Positions 5,870-19,819 of a stretch of 64,000 bases of DNA are shown here, piece by piece (position 1 is the first letter of the stretch; each line of letters opens with the position of its first letter). The position numbers and the translations under genes are program-made. The notes below the pieces were generated by a model. That model was not told the DNA's origin. It worked only from the letters and a program-made list of their open reading frames with translations, and did not search any database. The DNA is from Paenibacillus phyllosphaerae (lineage in GTDB: Bacteria; Bacillota; Bacilli; Paenibacillales; Paenibacillaceae): contig NZ_JACHXK010000001.1 in the NCBI RefSeq assembly GCF_014192105.1, positions 930,001 through 994,000 of the forward strand. Direction: 5' to 3'.

Positions 5870-5937
5870 TGGTCTTCGCCCCCCCCTTTATTCCCAGTTG
5901 TGTTTAGGATGAGCAGGTGCGGCTAATTTTAGCCGGG

Positions 5938-6067
5938 AAACCAAGGGCTGCTGCCCTTGGAGCCCGCGAGCTAGGGCTGCCGCCCTTGTGACCCGCCTTG
6001 TTGCGTAGCTAGGGCTGCCGCCCTTGCGACCCGCTAATATTGTTTTAGGGCTGCGCCCTTTTGAACC
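5938..6067. repeat. Four tandem GC-rich hairpins of the AGGGC..GCCCT type
   Basis: Four short inverted repeats lie at about 5938-5967, 5970-5995, 6007-6033 and 6045-6067. Each is built as (C)AAGGGC or TAGGGC, a 2-4 base loop, GCCCTT, then a CCCG or ACC tail. The two middle copies are nearly identical (TAGGGCTGCCGCCCTTG). Related but longer hairpins occur at 6129-6161 and 19474-19588, in both cases just before the large structured repeat. They encode no protein. They resemble REP-like or terminator-like intergenic hairpins; their link to the larger element is by position. Confidence 0.75.
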
Positions 6068-6128
6068 TCTTTTTTTATCCTCGCCCCTTCACTACCTTTC
6101 TCCCTCGCCCCTTCCCCCTCCATTGGAG

Positions 6129-6161
6129 AGGAACCAGAGGGCAACTGCCCTCTGGACGCCC
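6129..6161. repeat. GGAACC-hairpin-GGACGCCC unit preceding structured repeat copy 1
   Basis: A perfect hairpin (CCAGAGGGC, short loop, GCCCTCTGG) flanked by GGAA and ACGCCC. The corresponding place in front of copy 2 has GTTCCGAGGGT...ACCCTCTGGACACCC (19558-19588), so this unit appears to travel with, or belong to, the large structured repeat that follows 17 bases downstream. Confidence 0.7.
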
Positions 6162-6177
6162 GTAAGGGGCTAGATTC

Positions 6178-6385
6178 GTGACGCGGCCGTCTTCGATCTG
6201 TCCTTTCGAGCGTGGAGACGCTTTTGTCCTTGCGGATTGCAGTAGTTATGCAATCTGCTATGGACAAAGCTCTGACTTCGAGCTTCGTTCGCGGCTTTTA
6301 TGCCTTGTGGTGGTGACCTGATTGTTCGGCGTTTGTGGCTTCATTCGAGCTGACTCTCGCTTGACGTCCACTACGTGGACACGCT
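6178..6385 (+). ncRNA. Structured ~208-nt repeat, copy 1 (candidate DUF3800-associated RNA)
   Basis: This stretch aligns end to end with 19606-19819. Shared blocks include ACGCGGCCGTCTTCGAT (6181-6197), GGACAAAGCTCT (6262-6273), a 22-base identity at 6277-6298, GGTGACCT (6312-6319) and TCGCTTGACGTCC (6357-6369). Between the blocks sequence differs but pairing is kept. TTTGTCC (6223-6229) pairs with GGACAAA (6262-6268), enclosing GATTGCA/TGCAATC (6235-6241 with 6249-6255). GTCCAC (6366-6371) pairs with GTGGAC (6375-6380). This is the signature of a conserved RNA fold rather than a coding sequence. The strand is assumed from the downstream DUF3800 gene. Structured RNA motifs associated with DUF3800 genes have been described by comparative genomics. 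Membership in one of them, or in HEARO/omega-RNA-like families, is unproven. Confidence 0.6.
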
Positions 6386-6569
6386 TACTGTATTGGGCTC
6401 AAACAAACTGGCATGATTATTCGTGAGAGGGGTTCGTAAGATAGTGGGGGAATTCAAGCAATATGTGATATCAGCAAGAAATATGTTAAAGATAAAATCA
6501 TAAAAAAGGAATATAATGAAATGAAGTACGGAGCTTGTTCAAGAAGAGGCGTTTCGAAAAAGGGGTATA

Positions 6570-6743: not shown

Positions 6744-7547
6744 ATGGCCGAAGAAATTAAAACTGAAAAATTGAATATTTTCTTTGATGAGAGCGGAAAA
6801 CGAAAAGACAAACCTACGTTAATGGGCGGAATGTCTATACCTGCTGTTTTGTACAATACAGCACACTTTTCAAAAATGTCCCAAAAATTACGTGATGGCG
6901 AGATCAATTTGCACTGGAAAGAATATTCAGGCCACGCAACTACGCGGGAAAACATTAGGGATGCCATTTCGCTGATAACAAATCACGGAAAATTCATTAA
7001 ATGCACTGTAATTAATTATGACTTTTCCCTTATCGAGAAAAAAGGGTTTGCTTCTTTTATGGCCGAGCAGATGATATACACAAAGTTCCCGGAACGGATC
7101 ATTTACGGACTATTGAGAAGATACGGTAAGAATCTATACATTGAAGCTGACATCAAAGTCGAAAAGTCCCGAGAGTACGAAGACTTTAAACTTAACGAAG
7201 TCATGAAAGAGCAGCTCAACATCCAATCTATTTATCGTGGAGAACAGTTCATCATTAAAGAGAGTGAGCTTATTCCCAAAAGAGAGGAGATTGGCATTGA
7301 GTTGACGGACCTCCTTTTGGGATTAATGAGGACGGTAATATTAAATAAACCAAGCAGTTTTTCGAACACAGTTAGGTTCAAGAATGAACTAGTCATCGAC
7401 CTTATCAAGAACGATAAATTCTATTCATTCCTAGAGAATATTCGTTTCTTTGAATGGACTCACTCAAGAGAACTAACGGAAGTGAACTTTAGCGATTATC
7501 TCCAATTATTTATTGCCAACAACTACGATCAATATTTAATGCAATAA
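6744..7547 (+). CDS. DUF3800 domain protein
   Basis: 267 residues. It starts at an ATG six bases after AGGTG; a GTG nine bases upstream is the alternative. The N-terminus LNIFFDESGKRKDKPTLMGG matches the DUF3800 opening, in which the DES aspartate begins an RNase H-like fold. A later IEADIKV strand and ELTDLLLGLM helix (near residues 138 and 195) supply the other conserved acidic positions. The biochemical role of the family is not established; members are often found in mobile or defence islands and next to structured RNAs. Codon use is clearly more AT-rich than in the flanking operons, which suggests acquisition. It stands alone, with the structured repeat and the small RNA on its 5' side and a bidirectional terminator on its 3' side. 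Confidence 0.85.
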   Translation: MAEEIKTEKLNIFFDESGKRKDKPTLMGGMSIPAVLYNTAHFSKMSQKLRDGEINLHWKEYSGHATTRENIRDAISLITNHGKFIKCTVINYDFSLIEKKGFASFMAEQMIYTKFPERIIYGLLRRYGKNLYIEADIKVEKSREYEDFKLNEVMKEQLNIQSIYRGEQFIIKESELIPKREEIGIELTDLLLGLMRTVILNKPSSFSNTVRFKNELVIDLIKNDKFYSFLENIRFFEWTHSRELTEVNFSDYLQLFIANNYDQYLMQ

Positions 7548-7602: not shown

Positions 7603-7634
7603 AAAGAAGCCTCCCTAGTCTGGGAGGCCTTGTT
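7603..7634. terminator. Bidirectional terminator between DUF3800 and the WsfD-like operon
   Basis: GCCTCCC (7609-7615) pairs with GGGAGGC (7622-7628). T-rich tracts lie on both sides (CTTGTT on plus, TTCTTTAA on minus), serving convergent genes. Confidence 0.75.
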
Positions 7635-7636
7635 CA

Positions 7637-9070
7637 TTAGTTATAAGATGCCCTTCTGCCACGAACCAACTTCTCGGCGTAGAATGCCGCGTAGGCGATC
7701 GCGGTAACGATCATCATATCGAAACAAACGTTGAACAAGAACAGATGCTTGGCCATGTCCGCCTGACCGTCGCCGAGGATCGGGATCAGGAAGGAGAAGA
7801 TGCCCACCAAGCCGATTAGCATGAACAGCTCCACTGCCCTTCGGCTGCGGACTTGCGGACGGCGCAAGTATTCGTACGCCGCGGCGGCGTAGTAGAGCAG
7901 ATAGACCAGCGCGATGAACCATAGCTTGTTCGGCAGCTGGTGCAGCTTGAATTCGCTCCAGACGCTGTACACAGACGTGACCGCTCCCGGCGGCTTGCCC
8001 GCTTCCTTCTCGTAGTTCCCGAGGTAATAGGGACGGATCGTCATCCCATTCTCGGCGGCGTATTCCATCTTGTCGATGAGCCGCCCCGGATGCTTCAGGT
8101 AGAACAGCAGGATATCCTTATGCGAGATCCGGTCGTAGAAATCCGGCTTGAGTGAAGGGTCATTTTGCTTAATGGCGGTATCCGTCTGAAAATAATTCGT
8201 GCCAGCCAGCACCGATAATCTCGGTGGCAGCCCCAGCTCCTCCAGATCCCCTTCGACGTCGGGCGAACCGTTCATCACGCCGAAGAAGACCGTCTGGTAC
8301 AGATTGATATGCTTCAGATCCTTCGGCGCCGCGACATACATGATCACGGCGATCAAGAAAAGGGCCGCCGACCAGCCGTACGCCAGCTTCCGCCAGCGGA
8401 TGTCCCGGCCGAGTCCGGCGAATCGCAAGCCGATGATGGCGAACGCGCCCCCGATCGGGGCATTCTGAATCTTCGAACAGGCCAGGAACAGCGTCGAGAG
8501 GAAGAACAGCACGAGCAGCTTCCGCGACGGCCGCTCTTGGCGGGTCAGCAGCAGCCCAAGCCCGATGGTCAGCAGCATGAAGACGTAGGAGACCGGCTCC
8601 CCGAAGAAGGAATTGAAATAGGCCAAATACCCGATATCGCACAACATGACGAAAGCGCATAACGCAACGGCAATCCCCGTCCAGCGCGACAGCTTGCTCC
8701 CGTACCGGACGAGGCAGTAGATCGCTGCCGTCATAAGCACGATGTAGAACGCGCCGAGAATGCGCACGTCAAAAGCCGAGGGATGGAACACCGCCCCGAT
8801 CACTCGCGCGGCCAGCACCAGAATGATCTGGGTCGACACGTATGCGCCCCGGAAGAAGGAATCGTAGCTGAACTGCGCATGGGCGTATTTGAAAAACTGA
8901 TCGTCGTATGAAGCCGATGGATCGCCGTAATTGAGCCCTACCGTACCCATGACGCGCAAAAAATCGCCATTGTCCGCTACGCCGACGAATGGCCGGACCA
9001 GCAGCAGCACGATCATCAACACAGCAGCGGCCGCAGCCGTAATAGCTGCAAGTGAAGCCAACTTTCTCAT
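7637..9070 (-). CDS. WsfD-like membrane glycosyltransferase
   Basis: 477 residues with about 10-12 hydrophobic helices. A large extracytoplasmic loop (about residues 250-390) contains VFFGVMNGSPDVEGDLEELG and LKHPGRLIDKMEYAAENGM. This matches the 'glycan biosynthesis hexose transferase WsfD' group, polytopic enzymes that decorate secondary cell-wall or S-layer glycans in Paenibacillaceae. An early ADNGDFLRVMG loop fits a GT-C type active-site aspartate. I set the start at the ATG overlapping the GtrA stop (ATGA); the longer frame would add 17 residues inside gtrA. It is the last gene of a three-gene operon whose GT2 and GtrA partners make and flip the lipid-linked sugar donor. The substrate is unknown. 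Confidence 0.7.
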   Translation of the reverse strand: MRKLASLAAITAAAAAVLMIVLLLVRPFVGVADNGDFLRVMGTVGLNYGDPSASYDDQFFKYAHAQFSYDSFFRGAYVSTQIILVLAARVIGAVFHPSAFDVRILGAFYIVLMTAAIYCLVRYGSKLSRWTGIAVALCAFVMLCDIGYLAYFNSFFGEPVSYVFMLLTIGLGLLLTRQERPSRKLLVLFFLSTLFLACSKIQNAPIGGAFAIIGLRFAGLGRDIRWRKLAYGWSAALFLIAVIMYVAAPKDLKHINLYQTVFFGVMNGSPDVEGDLEELGLPPRLSVLAGTNYFQTDTAIKQNDPSLKPDFYDRISHKDILLFYLKHPGRLIDKMEYAAENGMTIRPYYLGNYEKEAGKPPGAVTSVYSVWSEFKLHQLPNKLWFIALVYLLYYAAAAYEYLRRPQVRSRRAVELFMLIGLVGIFSFLIPILGDGQADMAKHLFLFNVCFDMMIVTAIAYAAFYAEKLVRGRRASYN

Positions 9071-9522
9071 CTCACGCTCTCCCACTCTATCTTTTCTTTG
9101 GCCTTGCGGAACACGAGCCATCTTGAGCCGATATACCCCAGAATCGTGTAGAGCCCGCTTCCGGCCAAGGCCGCGATATTATGTATCGTCCGCTCCGTCA
9201 TCTCCATCTGCAGTCCGGGCAGCAGCTGCCTGGCCAGCACCTCCGCCCCCTTGTCCGCCAAGCCGTAAGCAAGAAGCCAGCAGCCGAGGGTCAGCAACGC
9301 GAATCGCCAAGCCGTGCTCGCGATACCGCTCCCGGAGCGGAACGTGAAGCTCCGGTTCATGAAGAAACTGTTCACCGCTCCGAGCGTGTTGCCGATGAAG
9401 GTCGACGCCCAATAGCCGAACCCCAGCCAGTTGAGGCAGATGTAGATGAGCGTCAGGCCGATCAACGTATTCATAATGCCGACCAGCACGAACCGGACGA
9501 AGCTGTGCTGCAGCAGCTTCAT
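9067..9522 (-). CDS. GtrA family membrane protein
   Basis: 151 residues with four hydrophobic helices. FVRFVLVGIMNTLIGLTLIY starts near residue 8, and NSFFMNRSFTFRSG lies in the first loop, as is typical of GtrA/DPMS accessory proteins. GtrA-type proteins are thought to help move undecaprenyl-phosphate-linked sugars across the membrane. Its ATG overlaps the stop of the GT2 gene and its stop overlaps the start of the WsfD-like gene, both by ATGA, so the three products are translationally coupled. Confidence 0.9.
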   Translation of the reverse strand: MKLLQHSFVRFVLVGIMNTLIGLTLIYICLNWLGFGYWASTFIGNTLGAVNSFFMNRSFTFRSGSGIASTAWRFALLTLGCWLLAYGLADKGAEVLARQLLPGLQMEMTERTIHNIAALAGSGLYTILGYIGSRWLVFRKAKEKIEWESVR

Positions 9523-19362: not shown

Positions 19363-19473
19363 CCGCCTTACGCCCCTCACGCTGTCATTTCCCTAGTTCC
19401 GTTGAACCAAGCATAAAGGCTGAATCTGAAATGAACCTGAAATGAAAGTGAGCGGCGGGTAAATTTCTCCCCG

Positions 19474-19588
19474 AGCCCCTCCCTTTGGAGGGAACCAAGG
19501 GCTTCGCCCTCTGGACACCCCTTTATTTCGCCTCCCCCAAGCCCCCTCCTCCGAGGGGGTTCCGAGGGTTATCACCCTCTGGACACCC
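19474..19588. repeat. Two GC-rich hairpin units preceding structured repeat copy 2
   Basis: Two consecutive units (about 19474-19521 and 19543-19588) each contain a CCCTCC...GGAGGG-type stem, an ACC or TCC link, an AGGGC..GCCCT or GAGGGT..ACCCTC stem, and then TGGACACCC. They match the unit at 6129-6161 and resemble the four shorter hairpins at 5938-6067. Confidence 0.7.
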
Positions 19589-19605
19589 ATAATCAGCGTC
19601 GCTCG

Positions 19606-19819
19606 TTACGCGGCCGTCTTCGATGTGTCCTTTAGATGGTAGCCCGCTTTTGTCCTGGCAGGTGGCATGCTTATGATGCATGCCACCTGCCGCTTGGACA
19701 AAGCTCTTGGTTCGAGCTTCGTTCGCGGCTTTGATGCCTCGTGGAGGTGACCTCAACGTGGTGCGGACAGCCTAGCTGCGTGCTGGGCTTCGCTTGACGT
19801 CCCCTGCGGGGACACGCTT
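19606..19819 (+). ncRNA. Structured ~214-nt repeat, copy 2 (no DUF3800 gene nearby)
   Basis: Same orientation and block order as 6178-6385. The helices differ in sequence but stay paired. TTTGTCC (19649-19655) with GGACAAA (19696-19702) encloses a perfect 14-base stem at 19657-19670 with 19678-19691, where copy 1 has only a 7-base stem of unrelated sequence. GTCCCC (19799-19804) pairs with GGGGAC (19808-19813), replacing the A-T pair of copy 1 by C-G. There is no open frame. It sits in the 604-base gap between the HD-GYP operon and a phosphotransferase gene, ending about 60 bases before that gene's promoter. It could be an independent small RNA or a mobile element remnant. Confidence 0.6.

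Follow-up and report, generated by a model that had tools for sequence, protein, structure and literature searches.

Structured repeats and neighbouring genes in the window

The window analysed here, a 64,000-nucleotide stretch of the Paenibacillus phyllosphaerae genome, carries two copies of a structured non-coding element, the first of which adjoins a gene for a DUF3800 protein (Table 1). Further downstream, a terminator-like hairpin, GCCTCCCTAGTCTGGGAGGC (~7608-7628), precedes the gene at 7637-9121 on the minus strand. The two look-alike copies described in the earlier note are present where it had placed them and both are real; their true 5' starts, however, lie ~75 nt earlier (6101 and 19528), and two copies proved far too few. 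Similarity between the pair is far above chance, and the genome holds ~80 occurrences. The stem exchange reported for the hypervariable hairpin, GATTGCA/TGCAATC in copy 1 for GGCAGGTGGCATGC/GCATGCCACCTGCC in copy 2 within an identical TTTGTCC/GGACAAA helix, was recovered, as was the compensatory change from A-T to C-G that distinguishes GTCCACTACGTGGAC (copy 1) from GTCCCCTGCGGGGAC (copy 2). Relative to dinucleotide shuffles, folding z-scores were -2.8 (copy 1) and -4.7 (copy 2) for the plus strand, and -3.7 and -6.1, respectively, for the minus strand. An array of short GC-rich hairpins (AGGGCTGCNGCCCTTGTGACCCGC units; 5920-6060) adjoins the 5' side of copy 1, and arrays resembling it also lie 5' of many other copies.

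Table 1. Coordinates of the element copies, their parts and the DUF3800 gene in the window.
Feature	Position	Strand	Evidence or remark
Element copy 1, whole	6101..6386	+	aligned with 62 other full-length copies from the same genome
Element copy 2, whole	19528..19819	+	same profile, 226 bits; DNA match at G000:C1:949603-949819
Copy 1, 5' unit: two hairpins, CCCCTCC/GGAGGGG-type and CCAGAGGGC/GCCCTCTGG	6115..6155	+	covariation helices 1 and 2
Copy 1, loop of second hairpin (6144-6146) and pseudoknot partner in CCCGTAA (6161-6163)	6144..6163	+	helix 3
Copy 1, near-invariant core block GACGCGGCCGTCTTCGATCTGTCCTTTCG	6180..6208	+	pattern found 80 times in own genome (G000); IS insertions
Copy 1, hypervariable hairpin, closing helix TTTGTCC/GGACAAA	6223..6268	+	helix 7; stems differ per copy
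Copy 2, hypervariable hairpin	19649..19702	+	
Copy 1, AAGCTC/GAGCTT hairpin	6267..6285	+	helix 8, 98.9% of cells paired
Copy 1, 3' module, terminal hairpin GTCCACTACGTGGAC at 6366-6380	6310..6386	+	helix 10
Copy 2, terminal hairpin GTCCCCTGCGGGGAC	19799..19813	+	
Partial second 5' unit, directly upstream of copy 2	19463..19523	+	nhmmer match L055:3764-3824
DUF3800 gene, outside the element	6744..7547	+	Pfam PF12686, E=4e-7

Modular architecture and covariation

Full copies of the element are ~240-340 nt long (typically ~290 nt) and share one layout. From 5' to 3', a double-hairpin unit and a loop pseudoknot are followed by the core block (consensus GCGGCCGTCTTCGATNTGTCCTTTCG), a hypervariable hairpin closed by the helix TTTGTCC/GGACAAAG, an AAGCTC/GAGCTT hairpin and finally a 3' module. 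This module ends in GTCCAC..GTGGACACGCTT, and tandem arrays of it reach four or five units (L048, L078, L087 (profile search) and L183). In the pseudoknot, the loop of the second hairpin pairs with the downstream CCCGTAA stretch; the version found in Paenibacillus methanolicus is TTAGCA/TGCTAA. No ORF was found inside the full copies, including 16 additional copies that were fetched, nor was an autonomous, ORF-bearing version encountered among these 16. In many copies (L043, L064, L092, L174, L175, L182), the 5' unit is split by a small inserted hairpin, AGCTTATGCTTCCGAAGTGAGTTTTCCNTTNGGAAAACTCT, which is present in P. methanolicus too.

Covariation across homologues, which had been named as the test of the proposed fold, is strong. 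In the 47 copies (alignment A1, drawn from 63 aligned full copies) on which it was computed, 94.6% of the cells of the named structure are paired. Fourteen pairs have changed on both sides against a shuffled mean of 6.5 (none of 500 shuffles scored as high), and 60 cells have done so against 12.1 in shuffles; because A1 was gathered via the conserved pattern and contains subfamilies, these counts are not formal probabilities. When the 3' partners were shifted as a control, at most 14 cells had changed on both sides. Among the pseudoknot pairs (helix 3), one position is A-U in 37 copies and C-G in 10, and another is C-G in 37 and U-A in 8, while one pair of helix 10 occurs as A-U (36), G-C (6) and C-G (3). 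A conserved non-coding fold with compensatory changes, as the earlier note had proposed from two copies, is supported on 47.

A high-copy family in two species

The two window copies belong to a larger repeat family. With up to two mismatches, the conserved mid-core block matches 80 times in the P. phyllosphaerae genome (7.9 Mb in 54 contigs) and 32 times in Paenibacillus methanolicus BL24; these counts are lower bounds, the family comprising at least 80 and at least 32 copies, respectively. A DNA similarity search of the P. phyllosphaerae genome scored 40 places, and a three-mismatch match on contig C15 was taken as chance. The pattern search returned no copies in the 21 other Paenibacillus genomes of the genus set of 23. 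Across 399 genomes of the order (own included), it gave only four isolated three-mismatch matches outside the own genome, none of which appears credible as a member of the family. Viral contigs yielded no match either, and a phage origin was rejected on this ground. Pairwise identity among copies has a median of 69%, and the best non-tandem pair, copy 1 and the L095 copy, whose flanks differ, reaches 83% (gapped alignment). Such identity levels suggest that the copies are old, with no sign of recent movement.

The 5' unit is more widespread than the complete element. It was found in 17 of the 23 genus genomes, usually joined to other interiors with a similar hairpin, CTCG..GTCC..GGACAC.CTT, after them. 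Elsewhere in the Paenibacillaceae it is present in few copies (26 of 151 genomes, own included). The window element is therefore a single subtype within a broader family of modular repeats. In other species, repeats with the 5' unit lie directly upstream of T-box leaders in 5 of 20 stretches (L192, L197, L201, L205, L208); no such adjacency was seen beside own-genome copies, and it was rejected as a general feature. Rfam scans of the element and further stretches gave no match to the element itself, only unrelated T-box leaders and riboswitches.

Replication-strand orientation and terminator hairpins

In 63 of 64 loci, the strand carrying the element has a negative GC skew, that is, it is C-rich and lagging; L092 is the sole exception. 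The rule also holds at L044, L045, L074 and L087, where most genes share the direction of the element, and pattern matches in P. phyllosphaerae show a single orientation per contig, except for one copy on C13. Orientation therefore tracks replication and not local gene direction. Neighbouring genes were called with a simple codon-usage caller at 63 loci. The arrangement gene < element > gene < occurs 39 times and gene > element > gene < 19 times, with five others, and the element's strand carries just 23% of the coding bases.

Of 68 places, 43 have a hairpin of at least 9 bp within 110 nt of the 3' end, its start 7-60 nt distant; the corresponding figures are 3 of 68 for control stretches further along and 8 of 340 for shuffled sequences. 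At L044, the element is situated between a plus-strand stop codon and the terminator of that same gene, suggesting that the terminator hairpin, rather than the direction of transcription, is the common factor.

Signs of mobility and of insertion into the element

The earlier suggestion that the element is possibly mobile is supported by several signs. Locus L053 holds three copies in a region that is syntenic across the genus. At two of these sites, which are empty in relatives, ~530-730 nt separate the flanking matches in P. phyllosphaerae, whereas relatives with an alignable site mostly have 130-380 nt and lack the element. Exceptions to this range are found at site A in L155 (673 nt; the flanking match begins at a greater distance) and at site B in L157 (1800 nt). 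At site A, a conserved terminator flanks the insert on one side and the promoter of the following gene on the other. At the border of the insert (L053, ~3740), the -35 region of this following gene is duplicated in inverted form, GGGGAGGGTTGTAAAG..CTTTACAACCCCTCCCC, the kind of trace expected from foldback or template switching. Of the L073 copies, the first has a counterpart in P. methanolicus, but the orthologous site there lacks the second. Several P. methanolicus loci share a composite in which a related unit is joined to the element.

Neither terminal inverted repeats nor a target-site duplication could be defined at the 70-80% identity of the relatives, and the exact ends are uncertain. 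Searches for a mobiliser gave no match to Y1 transposases (PF01797) in either P. phyllosphaerae or P. methanolicus. Five reverse transcriptase matches were obtained in P. phyllosphaerae and none (RVT_1) in P. methanolicus, which rules out reverse transcriptase as the only mobiliser. The search for Y2/IS91 transposases (PF04986) had no match, its control being silent as well.

The element is itself a target of insertion sequences. One sequence interrupts four copies (L083, L087, L102, L103) at an identical base, GTCCTTTC^G; in L083, an IS110-family transposase (PF02371) precedes this sequence. The insertion is a candidate for RNA-guided target choice. In two further copies (L099, L104), one sequence ending in AACCTGACAGCATTG adjoins the 5' hairpin at an identical position; in L104, a DDE_Tnp_1 (IS4-like) transposase precedes it. 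The same end sequence is also seen in many P. methanolicus copies. Specific insertion of IS elements into REP sequences is known (PMC1525189).

Comparison with known systems

Group IIC introns are structured RNAs that insert beside terminator hairpins. The element likewise lies beside terminator-like hairpins (43/68 against 3/68 in the control), but contains no Rfam intron domains, and P. methanolicus has no RVT_1 match. It differs from HEARO and IscB-TnpB guide RNAs in having neither an Rfam match nor a nuclease ORF in copies of ~240-340 nt. IS200/IS605 elements have a fork-set orientation and subterminal hairpins (PMC6006769); the element shares the fork-dependent orientation, judged by GC skew at 63 of 64 loci, but it has no Y1 transposase and no defined cleavage tetranucleotide, and its interior is long and variable.

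REP, BIME and REPIN sequences, associated with RAYT transposases, are extragenic palindromes that form arrays and serve as specific IS targets (PMC1525189, PMC2817692). The element resembles them in its ~80 extragenic palindromic copies, against about 100, and in harbouring IS110-type insertions in four copies and DDE-type insertions in two, each at a fixed base. It differs in being ~290 nt long, single-oriented and modular in a genome with no Y1/RAYT transposase. The bcr1-bcr18 repeats of the Bacillus cereus group are high-copy intergenic non-coding repeats, some MITE-like and some with conserved structure (PMC3446304). The element is likewise a high-copy, intergenic, non-coding and structured repeat of the Bacillota and, as in MITE- or bcr-like repeats, empty orthologous sites exist (two L053 copies, and one L073 copy relative to P. 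methanolicus). Set beside bcr by description, it differs in its near-absolute replication orientation and terminator adjacency, which the text considered does not describe for bcr (PMC3446304).

Alternative explanations

That the fold is conserved does not in itself identify the acting polymer or strand. The earlier reading of an RNA-like constraint without coding stands as far as the non-coding nature and the conserved fold are concerned; its RNA nature is not established, since G-T and A-C pairs are equally tolerated in the conserved helices (41:39) and counts for the hypervariable hairpin are mixed. On the plus strand, G-U exceeds A-C in this hairpin by 44:20, 66:53 or 32:13 in three counts, the last splitting into 24:13 for the own genome and 8:0 for P. 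methanolicus. The strand lean is thus limited to the hypervariable hairpin, and its size varies with the counting method; an RNAalifold-based count of 147:13 was discarded, as the predictor favours G-U. A family of functional ncRNAs or 3'-UTR elements, transcribed from the plus strand and affecting termination, mRNA stability or a partner in trans, with copies that spread but are retained for their function, would account for the conserved blocks and the compensatory changes in most copies. It also agrees with the 32:13 count, which is like that of real terminators in the same DNA scored in the same way (105:50 on the RNA strand), and with the 21 of 63 loci at which the element follows a same-strand gene. 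As a precedent, about half of the B. cereus bcr repeats are transcribed, many of them in UTRs (PMC3446304). At 42 of 63 loci, however, the 5'-side gene runs away from the element, which would then need its own promoter, and no promoter-like site was found in the intergenic region upstream of either window copy. The even counts in the conserved helices and the shrinking of the hairpin asymmetry to 66:53 by the looser count also speak against this account, and the replication-strand orientation is left unexplained. We consider it rather unlikely overall. Less probable still is that the covariation stems from mutation, template switching at the fork correcting imperfect palindromes and so maintaining them at the DNA level. 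The equal G-T and A-C tolerance of the conserved helices, the fork-oriented placement and the extra unrelated palindromes at element borders (for example at L053 site A) favour such a process, which could contribute; it cannot account for the unpaired blocks that do not vary, for the loop-flank pseudoknot or for the dispersal of the copies.

We also considered whether the element derives from, or is related to, a known mobile system (group IIC intron, IS200/IS605, REP-RAYT or an IscB/TnpB guide RNA). Group IIC introns and IS200/IS605 (PMC6006769 for the latter) share a preference for hairpins or for the lagging-strand template. The lack of an Rfam family, of a Y1 transposase in both genomes, of a reverse transcriptase in P. 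methanolicus and of an ORF in full copies, by contrast, has largely refuted this reading, to which we give little probability. The pairing of an RNA with the DUF3800 protein, as the earlier note had proposed from the proximity of copy 1 to the gene, is almost certainly wrong. Against ~80 element copies, the own genome has the window gene as its single PF12686 match, and none was obtained in P. methanolicus, where the element occurs at least 32 times. Searches against Rfam DUF3800 motifs and HEARO gave no match at the gathering threshold or at E up to 10. The element resembles the DUF3800 motifs in being structured and in adjoining such a gene at one of ~80 loci, but has neither a covariance-model match nor a recurring linkage. 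The neighbourhood is a coincidence. Copy 1 is one of five copies, among 63 loci, whose 3' neighbour does not run towards the element. The position of the GCCTCCCTAGTCTGGGAGGC hairpin would fit an arrival of the DUF3800 gene between copy 1 and that terminator.

A probable non-autonomous mobile repeat

We conclude that the element is probably a non-autonomous, modular, non-coding mobile repeat of the REP or bcr kind, and not a DUF3800-associated RNA. This reading draws on the copy number and sporadic distribution, the empty sites, the orientation, the 3' hairpins and the structure, as well as on the composite units in P. methanolicus and the IS elements at fixed bases, as in REP. Copies would have been inserted at the replication fork, beside a terminator hairpin formed on the lagging-strand template, with the conserved fold possibly acting as the recognition feature for a putative mobilising enzyme; any host function, such as an effect on 3' ends or mRNA, would be secondary. 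Against mobility stand the lack of a mobilising enzyme among our matches and of definable terminal inverted repeats or target-site duplications, and the apparent age of the copies. Since blocks are kept in nearly all copies, each copy could also be selected for a host function.

A recognisable transposase usually accompanies bacterial interspersed repeats. The present family, by contrast, comprises at least 80 structured copies that are oriented with replication at 63 of 64 loci and cluster beside terminator-like hairpins, yet the usual single-strand transposases are lacking. It is tempting, if distinctly speculative, to regard these copies as a new fork-dependent mobile class: structured, enzyme-less units set on one replication strand beside terminator hairpins, mobilised by neither Y1/HUH enzymes nor reverse transcriptase, within a modular family whose 5' head is shared across Paenibacillaceae. 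A mobiliser, if found, would represent a new route of single-strand insertion; if none exists, fork-driven copying would be suggested. As a natural IS110-type target, the element also offers test sequences for RNA-guided target choice.
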